Virus record (IMG/VR): IMGVR_UViG_3300042301_003612
Location: 19,559-83,558 of that record
DNA length: 64,000 bases
Strand: one strand, 5' to 3'
DNA from: a virus
Part shown: in pieces, positions 24,322 to 51,455 of the stretch
Position numbering within the stretch: the stretch's first letter is position 1
How the letters are laid out: each line of letters begins with the position of its first letter
Position numbers and translations under genes: made by a program
Notes under the pieces: generated by a model
What the model saw: only the letters and a program-made list of their open reading frames with translations
Database searches by the model: none
What the model was told of the DNA's origin: nothing

Positions 24322-24670
24322 AGAATCAGACACCACTAAAGTTGTTTTAACTAAAGAGGTTGCTAAACAAATTGTGAAAGACTTGATTAGGCTAGATGGA
24401 TGTCAAGAAGAGTTAAAATTAACTCAAAATAAAATTATTAAACTTGAAGAAAGAGAAATTCAAAAAGATACAATCATTTCTTTATTGAGAGATAAAGATA
24501 AGAATAACCAATTTGTTATTACTCAAAAAGATAAACAATTACAAATATCTGACGAGTTATCTAAAAGTTTAGGTAAAGAATTAAAAAGTTCTAAACGTAC
24601 CACTTCCTTATATAAATTAGGAACTTTAGTTGGGATTATATCAACATCACTTTTATTAATTATTAAATAA
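24248..24670 (+). CDS. Exported coiled-coil protein, spanin candidate
   Basis: 140 residues. An N-terminal signal peptide (MKKLILLTILALTSLNCFSQ) has the flavobacterial FSQ ending and a Cys at 17, although the residues before it are not a standard lipobox. A coiled coil follows and a C-terminal transmembrane segment (LGTLVGIISTSLLLIIK). Signal or lipid anchor plus C-terminal membrane segment is the layout of unimolecular spanins. The start is nested in the end of the preceding coiled-coil gene. Role in outer-membrane disruption is inferred. Confidence 0.6.
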   Translation: MKKLILLTILALTSLNCFSQTGTNKESDTTKVVLTKEVAKQIVKDLIRLDGCQEELKLTQNKIIKLEEREIQKDTIISLLRDKDKNNQFVITQKDKQLQISDELSKSLGKELKSSKRTTSLYKLGTLVGIISTSLLLIIK

Positions 24671-24671
24671 C

Positions 24672-25403
24672 ATGAAAATTAAAGAAACATATTCTGGTGA
24701 CCTAAAAACTAAAATGGCGGATGAAATGAGTAAAACAGGTGTTTTCTCACAAGGTTCAGACGCGGTCCAAACTGCAAACTCTTTTATTAGAAGTATACCT
24801 GAAAGTAAAAACAAAAAAGAAGAGATTATTCGTAAACCATTAAAGAAAGGTTTTACCAATAAGTTAGTTAGTACTAAAAAAATAACAAAACCTATAGGCA
24901 AATTAACTATGGGAATGCCAATAATGGGTGAAAAAAAAACAGAATCAACAGAATCAACAGGTTCAGGTTCTGCGGGAGGATTCTCAGAGCCATTATTCTC
25001 AACAACTAAAAAAGAAATGGAAGAAAATACGTTCAAAGCCCCAAAACTAACTATGTTTTCGGATGAAAAACCAAAACTTAAAAAAGTTGAGGCGACAGAA
25101 GCTACAGGTTCATCATCTTCAGGTGCTTATGAAACCAATGCGGCTTGGGCAAAATCCACAAGTAAAAAAGATTGGAGAGGTAAATCTAAACCTCAAATAC
25201 CTGGAGGTAAGTTCGTCCAAGTTAAAGAGAAGTGTAAAAAATTCCCATACTGTAATCAAGGAGATATTAAAGCTTTAAAAATATTTGAAAACAATACTGT
25301 TAAAAAAGTGATTACAAATATTAGTAAAAAACATAACATAAGTGAAAACGTGATTAAAACGATACTATCTTATGAGTATGAAAATAGTAAATCTAACAAA
25401 TAA
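24672..25403 (+). CDS. Probable virion protein with Cys motif
   Basis: 243 residues. Long Lys/Ser/Thr-rich and probably disordered regions, with two similar 'TEATGSSSSGAYETNAAW' and 'TESTGSGSAGGF' segments. A more conserved C-terminal domain follows: PGGKFVQVKEKCKKFPYCNQ (about 180-199) and a helical end. This C-terminal pattern recalls uncharacterised structural proteins of large marine myophages; I cannot confirm the family. Ends 38 bases before the next gene. Confidence 0.55.
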   Translation: MKIKETYSGDLKTKMADEMSKTGVFSQGSDAVQTANSFIRSIPESKNKKEEIIRKPLKKGFTNKLVSTKKITKPIGKLTMGMPIMGEKKTESTESTGSGSAGGFSEPLFSTTKKEMEENTFKAPKLTMFSDEKPKLKKVEATEATGSSSSGAYETNAAWAKSTSKKDWRGKSKPQIPGGKFVQVKEKCKKFPYCNQGDIKALKIFENNTVKKVITNISKKHNISENVIKTILSYEYENSKSNK

Positions 25404-40922: not shown

Positions 40923-42116
40923 ATGATAAAAATTGAATATGTATGGTTAGATGGATATGCACCAGAACCTAATTTAAGAAGTAAGATAAAAGTAATTGAA
41001 GGTGTGATTACTGATTTAACAAAAGTACCTGAATGGAACTTTGATGGTTCGTCAACAAAACAAGCCGAAGGATATAGTTCTGATTGTATATTAAAACCCG
41101 TTCGAATATATCGTGAGAATGATTGTTATAATAAAGTGTATGTGTTTTGTGAGGTAATGAATCCTGACGGAACACCACATGAATCAAACCATAGAACCAT
41201 GTTAGGTGACGAGGTTAATGATATGTGGTTTGGGTTTGAACAAGAATATTTTATTCAAGAGGGTATTGGGAAATCAATATTAGGATTTAATCGAGGTCAT
41301 ATTGAAGGACAAGGTAAATACTATTGTGGTGTCGGTAGTAATGTTGTTGGACGACAATTAGTTGAAGAACATATGGATTTATGTTTAAATATGGGGATTG
41401 AAATTACCGGAGTTAATGCTGAAGTTGCTTTGGGACAATGGGAATATCAAGTGTTTGCTAAAGGTAAAATTAAAGCTGGTGATGATTTATGGATGTCAAG
41501 ATATTTGATGGAGAAATTATCTGAAAAATACGGATATCATATTAACTACCACCCAAAACCTATTACTGCGGGTGATTGGAATGGTTCGGGTTTACATACA
41601 AACTTTTCAACAAAAAAGATGAGAGAAGTTGGGGGTGAAGGTTATTTCAAAACACTATTCAATGCGCTTGAGTCAAGAAAAGAACAACATATTGAAGTTT
41701 ACGGTTCAGATAATAATCTTAGATTAACTGGTAAACATGAGACACAATCAATCCATAAATTTAGTTGGGGGGTAAGTGACAGAGGAGCTTCAATTAGAGT
41801 TCCAAGGTTAGTTGCAGAATTATGGAAAGGGTATCTTGAAGATAGACGGCCAGCATCCAATGCAAACCCATACGAGGTTATCAAAGCAATTAGTGATACT
41901 ATTGATATGGCTGACGAATTATCGGTTACATTAAGTAATATGTTTTCAAATGTTAATACTAAAAACTTTGATGATTTAAAATCTAAATACAATGGAATAC
42001 CAACCGCAGAAGAACTTTTGGAGGAGTATAAAAATGATGATGATTATGAGTTATCTGAAAAAATGATGGAGTCTAAAGCAAATGTTAAACCAGAGTTTAT
42101 TAATAACAAAAACTAA
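40923..42116 (+). CDS. glnA: Glutamine synthetase, type II
   Basis: 397 residues. EWNFDGSSTKQA, GFEQEYF, NAEVALGQWEYQ, GSGLHTNFST and SDRGASIRVPR are the metal-, glutamate- and ATP-binding signatures of GSII, the type found in eukaryotes and some bacteria rather than the longer GSI. All active-site blocks are present. The enzyme makes glutamine from glutamate, ammonia and ATP. It is embedded in a co-directional phage gene run with close spacing on both sides, so it is part of the phage. No regulatory site recognised. Confidence 0.9.
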   Translation: MIKIEYVWLDGYAPEPNLRSKIKVIEGVITDLTKVPEWNFDGSSTKQAEGYSSDCILKPVRIYRENDCYNKVYVFCEVMNPDGTPHESNHRTMLGDEVNDMWFGFEQEYFIQEGIGKSILGFNRGHIEGQGKYYCGVGSNVVGRQLVEEHMDLCLNMGIEITGVNAEVALGQWEYQVFAKGKIKAGDDLWMSRYLMEKLSEKYGYHINYHPKPITAGDWNGSGLHTNFSTKKMREVGGEGYFKTLFNALESRKEQHIEVYGSDNNLRLTGKHETQSIHKFSWGVSDRGASIRVPRLVAELWKGYLEDRRPASNANPYEVIKAISDTIDMADELSVTLSNMFSNVNTKNFDDLKSKYNGIPTAEELLEEYKNDDDYELSEKMMESKANVKPEFINNKN

Positions 42117-44341: not shown

Positions 44342-45490
44342 ATGAAAGGAATGAAACTTAATGAGTCTGAATTAAAAGACAGGATATTTCAAATTTATAA
44401 AGAGGAACAATATAAGATTCTTGAAGAAAAATGGAACAAATTATCTAAAGAAGATAAAATATTTGTTTTTGAATTTGCAAAAAAAATATACACTGAACAA
44501 ACCAAGTTAATAAAAGAATCTAAATGGTATAATACTCTTGGTGATGTTGTCGGTATCTTTGACCCAACAGGTATTGTTGATATTGTTAATGGTATTAGTT
44601 ATTGGAGACAAGGTGATAAATTATATGCAATTCTTTCATTTGTTTCGGCAATCCCTTATTTAGGTGACCTTATCGCTAAACCTGTCATTGGTGTTATGAA
44701 ATTAGGTGGTGGAGCCGCTAAAGCGTTTAAAGCAGCAACTTTAACTGGCGATGCCGTTAAAATTGCTGGTACGGCAAAAAGAGCTGGTGGACCTATTGCT
44801 AAGATGGTTGAGACTGCTCCAACTTGGGGTGAGAAATTAGTGACCGCTTTAAAAGGGTCTATTGGCCGAGTTCCTTTGTTAGGTTCTGGCTTAGTAAAAG
44901 TTATTGAAGAGTACGTCCAAATTTTTGGTAAAGCCGGAAAAGAAATGAAAGCGGGAACTGAAATTGGTAAAGGTATTGTAAAAAGTGAAAAGGCGTTAAG
45001 CGCTGTTGAAAAAGAAGAATTATTAAAACAAATGAGTAAAGACCAATCTTTCAGAGGGTTTAGAGATTTAGGCACTGGAAAAAATAGTTGGTTAAGTTTT
45101 ATGAAATCGGATGCAAGTTTAGGCGCTAAATTTTATGCGGGGGTTCCTAGAATTTTTGGTGGTAATCCTGCAACAAGGTCTTTGATGAAAAGAACTAAAT
45201 TTTATGCGGGGTTTTTAGATTGGTTAGGTGTTGGAAATTTTGTTGGTCCTGATGAGCTTGAAAAAATGTACCCTGACGTTGAAAAACAGTATGAACAATA
45301 CGCTCAATTACCCGAATCACAAAATTTATGGAATCAGGAGTTTGCCTCAGGACAAACAACACAAACTACTGTAGCGTCCGAGTTACCATCATTGTCTACT
45401 GCAAAACAATCAACATCAACTGCGGTTAAAACAGATGCATTCACATCATTAATTAGTTCACTATTAGGTGGGGGAAAAGCGTTAGTATGA
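44342..45490 (+). CDS. Leader-bearing candidate ejected protein
   Basis: 382 residues. The N-terminus MKLNESELKDRIFQIYKEEQ is a shared leader. Residues about 60-115 (LGDVVGIFDPTGIVDIVNGI, then YAILSFVSAIPYLGDLI) form a hydrophobic domain similar to the DPTG-containing pre-toxin regions that precede polymorphic toxin tips. A Gly/Ala-rich helical part follows, and a Ser/Thr-rich C-terminus. I infer a capsid protein that inserts in a membrane or is delivered with DNA. No toxin active site seen. Confidence 0.6.
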   Translation: MKGMKLNESELKDRIFQIYKEEQYKILEEKWNKLSKEDKIFVFEFAKKIYTEQTKLIKESKWYNTLGDVVGIFDPTGIVDIVNGISYWRQGDKLYAILSFVSAIPYLGDLIAKPVIGVMKLGGGAAKAFKAATLTGDAVKIAGTAKRAGGPIAKMVETAPTWGEKLVTALKGSIGRVPLLGSGLVKVIEEYVQIFGKAGKEMKAGTEIGKGIVKSEKALSAVEKEELLKQMSKDQSFRGFRDLGTGKNSWLSFMKSDASLGAKFYAGVPRIFGGNPATRSLMKRTKFYAGFLDWLGVGNFVGPDELEKMYPDVEKQYEQYAQLPESQNLWNQEFASGQTTQTTVASELPSLSTAKQSTSTAVKTDAFTSLISSLLGGGKALV

Positions 45491-46893
45491 AAAACTTACT
45501 AAAAGAAAGTGGTATCAGAGATATCAATAAGTTAGCTAAACGTTATTCTAAAGCTGAAATTTATTTTCACCAAGATTTGGATGGCGTAACAACCGCACTT
45601 GCGATGAAAAAATACCTTGAAGACAATGGTATTAAAGTTGTTGATGCTCACGTTATTCAATACGGGGATAAAGAGTTCTCGGTAAAGAAGAATGACGCTC
45701 AAGGTGATATTATGCCAGTACTTGTGGATTTTGCTCATGGTAAACCAATGTTTGTTATCCATACAGACCACCACGATAGACAAGCGGGTGCGGAAGACAC
45801 TAAATCAACTTCATTTAGAAGTTCACGTTCAAATGTTGAAACAATATCCCAGGTGGTATCACCTAATGAAATATTCTCACCTGAAGATATTCAATTAATA
45901 TCTATGGTTGACTCAGCTAATTACGCGGCGAACGAAGTAACGGTTGACCAAGTAATAAATTATTTATTCAAATTAGATAAAGATAAATCTTTGGGTAAAA
46001 ACAAAACTGCCTTAGGTTTAGTTGCTAATAAGTTATTATTGGCGTTTAAAAATAAACCAGGGTTTTTAGAAGAACTTGTTATGGTTGGAACCCCATCACT
46101 TATGAATCTTGTTACTAACATAAAAAGAATCATGATTGAAAAAGGTTACGCTACCGTACCCGAATTACAGAAAAACAAAGAAGGTTATATTGACCAAATG
46201 AAAAACCACCATAATGTTAAAATTGAAGGTAACATTATTGTTCAATACGGAGGTGGTAGTATGATGAAACCTGGTTCTTATGATAGATACACGCCCTTCA
46301 AAAATAACCCTGACGCTGATTTCTTAGTTATTGCTTGGCCATTAGGTTTAGTTCAAGCGTCTTGTAATCCTTATAAAAAAGAACGTGAGTTAAAAGGTGT
46401 TAACTTAGGTGAGATTGCTCAGGAAGTACTTGCTAAATGGGAGACTCAATTACAAGAAAGACAAATACCGTTATCAACAATTAAATGGATTTCTGAAGGT
46501 TCAAAAGGATTTGGTCCTGAATCAGTTGGGTTTACCTTTAAAGATTTTGTTGCGTTATATGGTAACAATTTTAAAACAATGGAGAATGGTAAAAAACATT
46601 TAACTCAAATTGGTAAAATGATGGAAATTCCTTTTACTGAATTAAGCGAGGAAGAAATGAAAATGTTAGATGGTGTCACAATTAATGCTTGGGATTTAAT
46701 TCAAGCTAATAGTGGTGGACATAAATGTATCACGAACATTTCGGGGCTTAGTTATTTAGGTAGGTCTAAAAGACCGCCAGATGGAAAGTACAAGTATAAT
46801 GCTGAGTCAGATGATTCTCCTTATGTGAAGTTTACTAAAATGGTTCAAAAAGAATTGGTAAATGTGTTACAGTCTAAAATTAATGAAGGTTAA
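45487..46893 (+). CDS. DHH/DHHA1 family phosphoesterase
   Basis: 468 residues, overlapping the previous gene by four bases. HQDLDG (His28, Asp30, Asp32) is motif I, HTDHHDR (Asp94, His95, His96) the DHH motif, SMVDSAN a further metal ligand, and SGGHKC (409-414) the DHHA1 substrate-binding motif. Relatives degrade single-stranded DNA (RecJ), very short RNA (NrnA) or cyclic dinucleotides (GdpP). The sequence alone does not select between these. Co-translated with a candidate ejected protein. N-terminus MKNLLKESGI is faintly leader-like. Confidence 0.75.
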   Translation: MKNLLKESGIRDINKLAKRYSKAEIYFHQDLDGVTTALAMKKYLEDNGIKVVDAHVIQYGDKEFSVKKNDAQGDIMPVLVDFAHGKPMFVIHTDHHDRQAGAEDTKSTSFRSSRSNVETISQVVSPNEIFSPEDIQLISMVDSANYAANEVTVDQVINYLFKLDKDKSLGKNKTALGLVANKLLLAFKNKPGFLEELVMVGTPSLMNLVTNIKRIMIEKGYATVPELQKNKEGYIDQMKNHHNVKIEGNIIVQYGGGSMMKPGSYDRYTPFKNNPDADFLVIAWPLGLVQASCNPYKKERELKGVNLGEIAQEVLAKWETQLQERQIPLSTIKWISEGSKGFGPESVGFTFKDFVALYGNNFKTMENGKKHLTQIGKMMEIPFTELSEEEMKMLDGVTINAWDLIQANSGGHKCITNISGLSYLGRSKRPPDGKYKYNAESDDSPYVKFTKMVQKELVNVLQSKINEG

Positions 46894-47231
46894 AAATTAA
46901 CCTCATCACCGATTTGTAATCCTAATTTTTTTGCGGTACCCCCCATAATTTCTAAAATTATATCACCTTCACCACAGTAATTAACACATTCATCTGTCGT
47001 ACATGGGGAACAATTATGGTGTATTTTAGTTATGGTATTACTATCAATAAAAATAATGTCTAACGGGATAATACAATTTTTCATCCAAAAACAATGTTCA
47101 CCATCATCTATTAAAAATAACATACCATTATAGGAACTGTCAAATTTTTTACCCATCATACCACTTTCAGTATCTTTTGGAGTAATAACTGTTTTAACTT
47201 TAAACTTATTGTTATTAATTTTTATTATCAT
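46890..47231 (-). CDS. DUF192 family protein
   Basis: 113 residues. GMMGKKFDSSYNGMLFLID, then HCFWMKNCIIPLDIIFIDS and PCTTDEC, ending LGLQIGDEV: the full DUF192 pattern with the WMKN-x-x-IPLD core. Bacterial members are usually exported; here no signal peptide is present. Function of the family unknown. The 3' end overlaps the DHH gene by four bases. Confidence 0.8.
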   Translation of the reverse strand: MIIKINNNKFKVKTVITPKDTESGMMGKKFDSSYNGMLFLIDDGEHCFWMKNCIIPLDIIFIDSNTITKIHHNCSPCTTDECVNYCGEGDIILEIMGGTAKKLGLQIGDEVNF

Positions 47232-47313: not shown

Positions 47314-47388
47314 CAAAGCCCCAACGACCCCCTTTCTTGAGTTGGTTAATAATTAAACCCTAACAGTGTAAAAATTGTTAGGGTTTTT
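47314..47388 (+). ncRNA. Candidate short non-coding RNA
   Basis: A late-type element, a C-rich stretch that is unusual in this genome (GCCCCAACGACCCCC) pairing partly with GAGTTGG, and then an 11-base terminator stem with T tract. No reading frame of note. About 75 bases if transcription starts just after the element. Family unknown; prediction from layout only. Confidence 0.3.
47355..47388 (+). terminator. Intrinsic terminator before smpB
   Basis: AAACCCTAACA and TGTTAGGGTTT, an 11-base perfect stem with a short loop and T tract. Confidence 0.88.
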
Positions 47389-47401
47389 AATTTTTAATCA
47401 C

Positions 47402-47409
47402 TATCTTTG
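47402..47409 (+). promoter_or_regulatory. TAnnTTTG promoter element for smpB
   Basis: TATCTTTG five bases before the SmpB start. A TTG lies 24 bases upstream within the terminator, a little farther than ideal. Confidence 0.42.
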
Positions 47410-47413
47410 CTTT

Positions 47414-47848
47414 ATGGGGACTCAAATCAGCATAATAAATCGTAAAGTTAAGTTCGAATATTCATTTATTGAAACTTTGATTGTTGGTATAAAATTGGTT
47501 GGTCCTGAAGTTAAATCAATTCGTAGTGGTAAAGTGTCATTAGTTGATGCTTATTGTTTTTTTATTGATAACGAGTTAGTAGTTAAAGGAATGAATATTC
47601 CAGAATATAAAATGGCGTATACTCACGAACCATTGCGAGATAGAAAGTTATTACTTAAGAAAAAAGAAATTGTTAAATTACAAAAAGAACTTGTTAAAGG
47701 ATTAACATTGGTCCCATATAGAATATTTTCAAATGATAGAGGATTGTTGAAGATGGAAATAGTTTTGGGTAAGGGTAAAAAATTACATGATAAGAGAGAA
47801 TCTATTAAAGAAAGAGATATTAATAGAGAAATTATGCGTGGCATTTAA
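47414..47848 (+). CDS. smpB: SsrA-binding protein SmpB
   Basis: 144 residues from ATG 47414; the frame is open upstream, but this start aligns with SmpB N-termini. LVGPEVKSIRSGKVSLVDAY, RDRKLLLKKKEI, GLTLVPYRIF and LGKGKKLHDKRESIKERD match the SmpB core and basic C-terminal tail closely. SmpB delivers tmRNA to stalled ribosomes. Length is close to bacterial SmpB (about 150). No tmRNA gene was recognised in this window, so it may work with host tmRNA or one encoded elsewhere. TATCTTTG lies just upstream. Confidence 0.88.
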   Translation: MGTQISIINRKVKFEYSFIETLIVGIKLVGPEVKSIRSGKVSLVDAYCFFIDNELVVKGMNIPEYKMAYTHEPLRDRKLLLKKKEIVKLQKELVKGLTLVPYRIFSNDRGLLKMEIVLGKGKKLHDKRESIKERDINREIMRGI

Positions 47849-47858
47849 AAATTTTTTG

Positions 47859-47866
47859 TATCTTTG
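47859..47866 (+). promoter_or_regulatory. TAnnTTTG promoter element
   Basis: TATCTTTG 20 bases before the ATG at 47887. A matching -33 TTG is not clear. Confidence 0.45.
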
Positions 47867-47886
47867 TAATCACAAACACCGATACT

Positions 47887-48630
47887 ATGACAGACGCATT
47901 AACACAAAAAAAAATTGCAAAAACTAAGTACCAAGACGCTAAGCGTAGTGCGTTAAGAAGTTATGACCAACAAAAGTTGGTAATTGACATTAAACAAAAA
48001 GTTTTTGAAGATTTTTATACCGATATGGTTAAAGTATCTCCTGATTTTGAATTGGTTAAAACTCAAAATTCTTTGGACTATAAAGTTTGGGTTAATTCAT
48101 TTCCTGTTGAAACTTTAACATTAAATTATTTTGATTATGAAATTAAATACACAGGTAAATTACCTGAAGTAGTATCAAAAGGTAAAATTCGTATTGATGT
48201 TAGTGAACACTATGTTACTCCAAGAGGTTCGTGGAAACAAAAAAACTTGGGTTTTAAAATTAAAACTTTATTAGGTTATAATGAAGAAAGTCCATATTAC
48301 AAATCTGGTAGAACTGTTGCTAAGAAAATAATTGAATATGTAGATTCTTTATGGGTAATTGAAAAAGACAGATTATTAAAACAAGATATAAGAAGCCGTG
48401 CCTTCAGAGAATTAATTGGCATGTTTAGTTTTTCTAGAGTTGATTTTGGTACACCAACAACGCCAAACGACCCTAATACTTTTACAGTAACTAATGTTAA
48501 TAAAACCAAGATTATTTTAGGGTACAGATATCGTTCTGTTAATGATAAGATTGAGTTTATTAAAAAGGATATCATTGTACCTAAAGAATTTAATTTAACT
48601 TCTTTAGTGGAAAAATTAGGAGAATTGTAA
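47887..48630 (+). CDS. Hypothetical protein (247 aa)
   Basis: Lys-rich N-terminal helix (QKKIAKTKYQDAKRSALRSY), a beta-rich middle (TLTLNYFDYEIKYTGKLPEV) and an alpha/beta C-terminus. No family recognised. TATCTTTG upstream suggests early or host-polymerase expression. Confidence 0.58.
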   Translation: MTDALTQKKIAKTKYQDAKRSALRSYDQQKLVIDIKQKVFEDFYTDMVKVSPDFELVKTQNSLDYKVWVNSFPVETLTLNYFDYEIKYTGKLPEVVSKGKIRIDVSEHYVTPRGSWKQKNLGFKIKTLLGYNEESPYYKSGRTVAKKIIEYVDSLWVIEKDRLLKQDIRSRAFRELIGMFSFSRVDFGTPTTPNDPNTFTVTNVNKTKIILGYRYRSVNDKIEFIKKDIIVPKEFNLTSLVEKLGEL

Positions 48631-49398: not shown

Positions 49399-49719
49399 AT
49401 GGCTAAAGATATTATTATTTCGGAAAAACAATTAGAACTGTTAGTTAATGGCGTTAAAAAAGGAAATATACAAGAGCACGGACAAGAAGGGTCTTATATG
49501 GCAAAACAACAATTATTCACTATTGCAACATTAGCACATGCTATGTGGGAAAAAATGGAACAAGGTGAACAACTTGAGGATTGGATGGAGACTAAACTTG
49601 CTCAGGCCGAACAAAGTGTTGTTAGTGTTGTTAAGACATATATGTATGACGAATTTGAGTCTAAAGACTCTGAAGGTATGGGTAAATTAAATTACGATGA
49701 AATAGTAATTGGTAAATAA
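49399..49719 (+). CDS. Leader-bearing helical protein (106 aa)
   Basis: Start at ATG 49399; an in-frame upstream start lies before the late element and is unlikely. IIISEKQLELLVNG is leader-like. The core (YMAKQQLFTIATLAHAMWEK, then LEDWMETKLAQAEQSVVSVV) has the layout of a helical domain that recurs in myophage proteins of unknown function. I infer an internal or scaffold protein. Confidence 0.6.
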   Translation: MAKDIIISEKQLELLVNGVKKGNIQEHGQEGSYMAKQQLFTIATLAHAMWEKMEQGEQLEDWMETKLAQAEQSVVSVVKTYMYDEFESKDSEGMGKLNYDEIVIGK

Positions 49720-49778: not shown

Positions 49779-50675
49779 ATGAGTAAAATTATAGTAACAG
49801 GTGGGTTAGGTTTTATTGGGTCACATTTTGTAAATTATGTTAGAGAAAATACATACCACAAAGTATTAATTATTGATAAACTTACATACGCAGGTAATCT
49901 TAATAATCTTATATTACCAACCGATTATTTAAAAAAAGATATATGTGATGTGATACCTGAGGATTTAGGTGACTACGATTACATAGTTAATTTTGCTGCT
50001 GAGTCACACGTTGACAATTCAATTAAAGACGGATTACCATTTGTTAAATCAAATGTACAAGGTACCTTCAACATGATTGAGGTCGCAAGAAAAAACAAAA
50101 ACCTAATTAAATTCTTACACATTTCAACGGACGAAGTTTATGGTGATATAGATGAGTATTCAGCAATTGAATCCGATAACATTATTCCAAGTTCATATTA
50201 TTCTGCAACTAAAGCATCTGCCGATATGTTGGTAATGTCTGCAGGAAGAACATATGGGTTTCCATATTTAATCACACGTACTTGTAATAATTACGGGGAA
50301 AATCAACACCACGAAAAATTTATACCAAAGATTATTAGGTCAATTAAAAACGGTGATGAGGTACCGGTGTATGGTGATGGTGAACAAGTTAGGGAGTGGA
50401 TACATGCTGATGATAACGCAAAATCAATATTAACCTTATTAATGTCGGATGAAGTTAATGAAATATATAATATTGGAACTGGAGAATCATACACTAACAA
50501 CCAAATAATCAAAATGATTGGTGATATATTAGGTAAGGATGTTAAATTTAAATACGTTGAGGATAGACTAGGCCACGATAGAAGATATTCATTAAGTTCT
50601 TTAAAATATGAAAACAAATTTGGTGTAATGCAAAATACTAAACTAACCGAATGGTTAAAAAAAATAATTAAATAA
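49779..50675 (+). CDS. rmlB: dTDP-glucose 4,6-dehydratase
   Basis: 298 residues, short-chain dehydrogenase fold. TGGLGFIGSH (7-16) binds NAD, NFAAESHVDNS and ISTDEVYGD are family signatures with the catalytic Asp-Glu pair, and YYSATKASAD holds the YxxxK catalytic pair. The C-terminal part (DGEQVREWIHADDNAK; YNIGTGESYTN) binds the sugar nucleotide. It converts dTDP-glucose to the 4-keto-6-deoxy sugar used for rhamnose and other deoxysugars. With RmlC nearby it makes part of that pathway; RmlA and RmlD are not in the window. Starts directly after a terminator. Confidence 0.88.
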   Translation: MSKIIVTGGLGFIGSHFVNYVRENTYHKVLIIDKLTYAGNLNNLILPTDYLKKDICDVIPEDLGDYDYIVNFAAESHVDNSIKDGLPFVKSNVQGTFNMIEVARKNKNLIKFLHISTDEVYGDIDEYSAIESDNIIPSSYYSATKASADMLVMSAGRTYGFPYLITRTCNNYGENQHHEKFIPKIIRSIKNGDEVPVYGDGEQVREWIHADDNAKSILTLLMSDEVNEIYNIGTGESYTNNQIIKMIGDILGKDVKFKYVEDRLGHDRRYSLSSLKYENKFGVMQNTKLTEWLKKIIK

Positions 50676-50933: not shown

Positions 50934-51455
50934 ATGGAAGAAGGTTTATTAATACATAATTCAGTATTCAAAGATAGTCGAGGAACATTTGCACCTTTAC
51001 CTTTAAAATTTGATGAAAGTAACTTATCTGTTTTACGTAAAGATTGGGTACAAAGTAATATTAGTGTTAACCCTAATAAATTTACGTTTAGAGGATTACA
51101 TTTTCAAGTTGGTGAGTTCGCTCAGTCAAAGTTAGTTAAGGTCATTACGGGGAAGATAATCGACTTCATCGTTGATATTAGACCTAATTCGCCTAACTAT
51201 CTAAAGACTTATGAGTTTGTTGTAGAACCTAACAATGAATTGTTTGTCCCTAAAGGATTTGCCCACGGGTTTATAACTACTGAGGATAACACGGTAGTTC
51301 AGTACTTGGTAGACAATGATTACTCACCATTAAAGGAGGGTTCCATTTTTTGGGCTGACTTTAATTTAGTTAAACAAACCGTAGAACGAGTGATTGAGGA
51401 TAATGAGTTAACAATTTCAACAAAGGATTTGGTAACTAAAAATTTTAATGTATAA
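50934..51455 (+). CDS. rmlC: dTDP-4-dehydrorhamnose 3,5-epimerase-like
   Basis: 173 residues, cupin fold. DSRGTFAPL, FTFRGLHFQ (RGLHxQ active site with His), KLVKVITGKIIDFIVDIR and VPKGFAHGF match RmlC. It epimerises the product of RmlB; some homologues epimerise only one carbon. Forms a nucleotide-sugar pair with RmlB, presumably for modifying phage or host surface glycans. Confidence 0.85.
   Translation: MEEGLLIHNSVFKDSRGTFAPLPLKFDESNLSVLRKDWVQSNISVNPNKFTFRGLHFQVGEFAQSKLVKVITGKIIDFIVDIRPNSPNYLKTYEFVVEPNNELFVPKGFAHGFITTEDNTVVQYLVDNDYSPLKEGSIFWADFNLVKQTVERVIEDNELTISTKDLVTKNFNV

Follow-up and report, generated by a model that had tools for sequence, protein, structure and literature searches.

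Genes for SmpB and tmRNA in huge phages have already been published by Al-Shayeb et al. (2020; PMC7162821), and phage tmRNAs were known earlier from mycobacteriophages and Bacillus phage G (PMC4131195). A tmRNA also occurs in phage Melnitz, where tag-and-degrade roles have been proposed for it (PMC9004378). Here, an smpB gene was analyzed that lies in a 64-kb stretch of viral DNA (the window), which the preliminary description had characterized as encoding a full SmpB with a basic C-terminal tail and an element of its own, but no visible tmRNA. An IMG/VR record of 83,558 bp comprises the window and is itself contained with 100% identity in a 177,135-bp contig (IMGVR_UViG_3300044846_004119, hereafter G001). 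The gene and its surroundings comprise the following features (window coordinates):

45487..46893, + strand: 468-aa protein with a weak DHH phosphoesterase match (PF01368, E = 1.9e-4, below cut-off), a conserved neighbor by synteny
46890..47231, − strand: DUF192 protein (PF02643, E = 3.7e-23), conserved neighbor 5' of smpB
47355..47386, + strand: terminator-like hairpin followed by a T run, directly 5' of smpB (13-pair stem, T-rich tail)
47402..47409, + strand: TATCTTTG, putative Bacteroidota-type -7 promoter element 4 nt 5' of the smpB ATG (TAnnTTTG and gap conserved)
47414..47848, + strand: smpB, SsrA-binding protein of 144 aa with start ATG (PF01668, TIGR00086, AlphaFold2 model)
47887..48630, + strand: 247-aa protein (ORF) 3' of smpB; a separate TATCTTTG for this gene is present at 47859-47866

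The window protein matched the Pfam SmpB profile PF01668 with 154.9 bits (E = 1.7e-45; cut-off 27), the NCBIfam equivalog TIGR00086 (smpB) with 153.3 bits (cut-off 119.1), and PRK05422 with 152.6 bits (cut-off 130). These family profiles cover its full length above their curated cut-offs, and phmmer comparison with solved SmpBs gave E-values down to 5.6e-33. The AlphaFold2 model (mean pLDDT 86) has the SmpB beta-barrel fold, and all 21 PDB matches at E < 0.001 were SmpB chains or SmpB complexes, the best being 7ljp (E = 1.3e-14) and others including the structures of SmpB with the tRNA-like domain of tmRNA, 2czj (E = 8e-12) and 1p6v (E = 3e-11). The basic tail is modeled as a helix (residues 124-143) and is near-full with 21 residues past GKK, compared to 22–27 in bacterial homologs; together with the profiles and the fold this bears out the earlier reading of a full SmpB including its tail. 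As start codon, ATG 47414 was preferred over TTG 47375, at which the mechanical ORF opens, because close relatives align from the former. In the SmpB tree the protein belongs to a supported clade of 11 exclusively phage proteins, among them those of contigs G012 and G049, which is placed within the Bacteroidota beside a Chitinophagales sequence. Judged by its sequence and predicted fold, the window gene is an intact, normal SmpB of a very large Bacteroidota virus.

The element attributed to smpB in the preliminary description could be confirmed as TATCTTTG, and its 4-nt distance to the start codon is retained in relatives of 58–99% protein identity bearing TATATTTG or TATCTTTG; one relative with a GTG start keeps the same gap. 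The element would function as a promoter, and the smpB transcript is possibly leaderless. Since this phage shows no general enrichment of TATnTTTG boxes at a 4-nt distance from ATG codons, leaderless expression is argued from the conservation at smpB only. Hairpins similar to the one upstream of the gene (fold of 47340-47402, z = -6.0) also occur in relatives. The DUF192 gene occupies the same position in G006, G007, and G008, which have smpB there and a 244-aa ORF in the place corresponding to 47887..48630, and in G043, where the DHH, DUF192, and NUDIX-like ORFs are present but smpB is absent. The 247-aa protein had no match in Pfam or PHROG. Elsewhere, the window encodes a glutamine synthetase-like protein (40923-42116; Gln-synt_C and N domains) that is also found in relatives, a dTDP-sugar dehydratase-like epimerase (49779-50675), and a dTDP-4-dehydrorhamnose 3,5-epimerase (50934-51455). 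The two dTDP-sugar genes suggest glycan modification, and the left part of G001 contains apparent glycosyltransferase-type genes and repeat-rich proteins.

Neither tmRNA nor tRNA was detected in the window by ARAGORN and Rfam, whose relaxed E-values yielded chance matches only, and the absence of a tmRNA from the window thus stands as first described. No tmRNA was found in the 83.6-kb record either, and neither tRNA nor tmRNA in the whole of G001 (ARAGORN; Rfam tRNA and tmRNA models); one Rfam/ARAGORN pass over pieces of this contig omitted L053 and L054, but the searches with RF00023 and RF00005 covered all of it. The ends of G001 show no terminal overlap of the contig with itself, and it contains no homologs of the T4-like terminase, portal, and major capsid proteins. 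Because relatives carry these genes on a neighboring block (for example G031), G001 is regarded as an incomplete genome. The apparent lack of a tmRNA for this SmpB most likely results from the limits of the window.

A search for neighboring sequences with the end of G001 returned matches to contigs G024 (71,258 bp), G025, and G026. The terminal 147 nt of G001 recur with 100% identity in G024 and G025 and with 99.3% in G026; the segments ahead of them match at about 95% without change of orientation, although insertions and a single displaced segment occur there. G024 carries a one-piece, full-length tmRNA (24371-24780; 104.4 bits, E = 1.6e-39, RF00023 model positions 1-374) located about 45 kb beyond the position of the G001 end, which is 40 kb from smpB. 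A covariance-model search beyond the window, as proposed in the preliminary description, was hence negative for G001 and positive for the adjoining contig, and the statement that a tmRNA is lacking very probably does not apply to the entire phage genome. A 40-nt piece of this tmRNA was found in 19 viral contigs, which include a 108-kb and a 97-kb contig from the two samples that yielded the 177-kb and 126-kb smpB contigs.

The 310,691-bp contig G012, whose SmpB is 56% identical to that of the window, was used as map reference. G001 is colinear with G012 from 252 to 165 kb, the tmRNA-bearing contigs G031, G024, and G032 continue along it from 252 to 292 kb, and G043 (290,887 bp) is likewise colinear with both parts. 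The far end of G031, a contig of the sample that also yielded G001, matches the right end of G001 at 90% and in consistent orientation. The simplest map would be one genome of about 275–290 kb with smpB and tmRNA approximately 85 kb apart. G024 stems from another sample than G001, and the junction region is mosaic, as T4-like genomes are, and rich in repeated leader sequences. Searches for the missing ~100 kb of the exact strain by its end sequence, by the tmRNA 40-mer, and by clustering Clp ATPases by sample did not recover it and returned right-end neighbors only, and no single contig links exactly this smpB to a tmRNA. We infer that the exact strain of the window carries a tmRNA, and the gene for the RNA partner of its SmpB very probably lies in another part of this viral genome, beyond the 64-kb window. 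Similar short amphipathic leaders (MNLQENIQRIREMM, MKLIITESQLEK, MARIVRLTERDLTRIVKRVI) are shared by dozens of unrelated ORFs in G001 (160-177 kb, L057), G031, G024, and G012, for example at 49402-49719 of the window. Such leaders are known in T4 internal proteins, and those observed here may be capsid-targeting or cleaved leaders.

The proteolysis tags of these tmRNAs were compared to those of 12 Bacteroidota genomes, the bacterial tags being called by ARAGORN and the phage tags being read from the resume codon frame. Ten of the 12 genomes have GENNYALAA-like tags of 9–10 aa (the ARAGORN frames were implausible in the other two), and tags of ten aa are the most frequent in general (PMC11915505). 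The tags of the phage lineage, in contrast, are about twice as long, with 20–22 aa (GDVLSKMETLGLLRGSEVTVS in G024, GDVLSKMETLGLLRESEVTVA in G031, GNVLDNLSVVGLISTEQVTVA in G032, and GNVYNNMEVAGLLATSKVAA in G012), and have a conserved VTVA or VTVS end. Their frame is open in all 24 phage tmRNAs, whereas the two other frames are closed in the 12 distinct 63-nt tags, and substitutions are less frequent at codon position 2 than at positions 1 and 3. In most copies the acceptor stem, as read from the sequence, is GGGGGUG/CACCUCC with a G-U third pair, which is a mark of alanine charging. A tag of 20–22 aa ending in VTVA, as opposed to the 9–10-aa GENNYALAA type of bacteria, is possibly new; no report of this difference and of the co-occurrence with Clp genes was found in the literature searched, which left most subscription journals outside its reach.

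Among viruses, smpB was found at 36 loci. Both smpB and tmRNA are present on the long contigs G010, G012, G014, G015, and G016, in three Lak phages, and in LR756504, and they are only ~500 bp apart in G049; G012 carries the genes for SmpB, the Clp ATPase, and ClpP and the tmRNA on one contig. A tmRNA was present in 14 of 14 relatives with the Clp ATPase gene that adjoins it. Since G043 and G044 (~290-304 kb as assembled) contain a tmRNA without smpB, the latter most likely represents the variable, optional part and the tmRNA the steady part in the contigs compared, and SmpB may be supplementary, as these two close relatives manage with tmRNA alone. The tmRNAs of huge phages are probably under-called: in the 735-kb phage LR756501.1, a sub-threshold full-length match (718388-718731, L353) with a 33-codon tag-like frame ending in LVLA was missed by ARAGORN. 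LR756502 yielded no tmRNA match over the cut-off and LR745206 none at E ≤ 1e-10. Of the E. coli phage records with smpB, one was examined (prophage NC_049342.1, L154), and its smpB was rejected as a phage gene, for it belongs to the host flank recN-bamE-rnfH-ratA-smpB.

Close to the tmRNA, relatives encode a ClpC-like ATPase, represented by two genes:

L214:10682-12808 (contig G031): N-domain-less ClpC-type AAA+ unfoldase
L185:10075-12141 (contig G012): N-domain-less ClpC-type AAA+ unfoldase

The similarity to ClpC extends over both AAA domains of the protein (the best match among solved structures being 6em8 ClpC, 1.7e-218), and the [VI]GF ClpP-docking loop and the Walker motifs are kept. The distance of this gene to the tmRNA is about 2-4 kb, or about 25 kb in G012 if that contig is circular. 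A ClpP with the Ser-His-Asp triad is encoded in G012 and G024 and was absent from G001, G031, G043, G044, and G049.

In our view the window gene probably codes for a functional SmpB, which in a large T4-like Bacteroidota phage serves chiefly the phage's own tmRNA in tagging, release, and handover to Clp. The protein would bind the tRNA-like domain of tmRNA, preferentially that encoded by the phage some 85 kb away, and bring alanyl-tmRNA to ribosomes stalled on mRNAs broken during infection. The ribosome would then resume on the phage tag of ~21 aa ending in VTVA or VTVS instead of the ..NYALAA type of the host, and be released. The tagged fragment would probably be passed to a Clp protease, for which the phage ClpC-type ATPase and, where present, the phage ClpP are candidates; degradation of tagged proteins by Clp enzymes of the phage or the host appears likely. 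The earlier suggestion that the phage maintains trans-translation is supported in the sense of a general role during infection.

Two other functions of the protein had been considered in the preliminary description, namely use of the host tmRNA and action as a decoy. If it worked mainly with the host tmRNA, the phage SmpB would top up a falling host supply and the host tag would be used, which would agree with the lack of a tmRNA over the 177 kb of G001, the presence of a tmRNA in all 12 Bacteroidota genomes tested, and the Bacteroidota type of the window SmpB in the tree. As the adjoining contig and relatives encode a phage tmRNA, however, recourse to that of the host is not needed, and we consider this improbable. 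The idea that SmpB interferes with ribosome rescue in the host, as a decoy or inhibitor, at first looked promising from two departures from the E. coli protein, the replacement of E31 by I and of N93 by K, at positions of importance for binding. The central loop, too, is two residues shorter than in all 39 bacterial homologs compared. Comparison with 45 Bacteroidota homologs (E. coli numbering) led us to drop it. Both replacements are ordinary in this phylum, where E31 occurs in none of the 45 SmpBs and K93 in six, although the peptide patterns with which these homologs were retrieved bias the counts at position 93 and around H136. The preliminary description had named loss of tmRNA-contact residues as evidence against its reading, but in the alignment the invariant tmRNA- and ribosome-contact positions are retained (G33, G38, E40, K42, R45, L91, K124, G132, K133, K134, H136, D137, K138, and R139), with tail and decoding-centre residues intact, and the lineage has a complete tmRNA whose tag frame is conserved. 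A decoy is thus highly improbable.

That smpB was recently acquired from a host, or is contamination, and plays no part in the phage is scarcely credible. Such artefacts do exist, as the host flank in the E. coli "phage" record illustrates, but the gene has the same locus and promoter spacing across several phage lineages (58–100% identity), forms a phage-only clade, and recurs at 36 viral loci.

With a phage SmpB working chiefly with the phage tmRNA as the preferred reading, the original finding of an orphan SmpB mostly dissolves, and what is left is a lineage with a steady tmRNA, an optional SmpB, a long and differently ending tag, and adjacent Clp genes. If this tag is read differently from that of the host, these phages would have rewired where rescued proteins go. 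A more far-reaching version would be a private, host-orthogonal tag-and-degrade pathway, in which the VTVA end added by phage SmpB and tmRNA is poorly read by the host ClpXP and selectively recognized by the N-domain-less phage ClpC (with phage ClpP in some), so that chains are routed to phage instead of host proteolysis; we regard this as speculative and rather unlikely.

Compared to the described systems, the window SmpB resembles the SmpB family (PF01668, TIGR00086) in sequence, in its OB-fold and C-terminal helix, and in the tmRNA- and decoding-centre residues, but is phage-encoded, has the shorter central loop, and forms a phage-only branch inside the Bacteroidota. The ATPases of the relatives share with bacterial ClpC-ClpP the ClpC-type AAA+ architecture with the [VI]GF docking loop, and G012 and G024 also the ClpP triad; they differ in lacking the ClpC N-domain and, in the five contigs named above, a ClpP. 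Both genes reported from huge phages by Al-Shayeb et al. (2020; PMC7162821) were likewise seen here in Lak phages and LR756504. The probable large distance between smpB and tmRNA, the optional smpB alongside a steady tmRNA, and a tag that differs from those of bacteria in the host phylum did not appear in the accessible part of that paper. With mycobacteriophages, phage G, and Melnitz this lineage has in common a complete tmRNA in a lytic phage, but while the Melnitz tmRNA is two-piece, the tmRNA described here is one-piece, encodes a tag of 20–22 aa, and lies beside a Clp ATPase gene.
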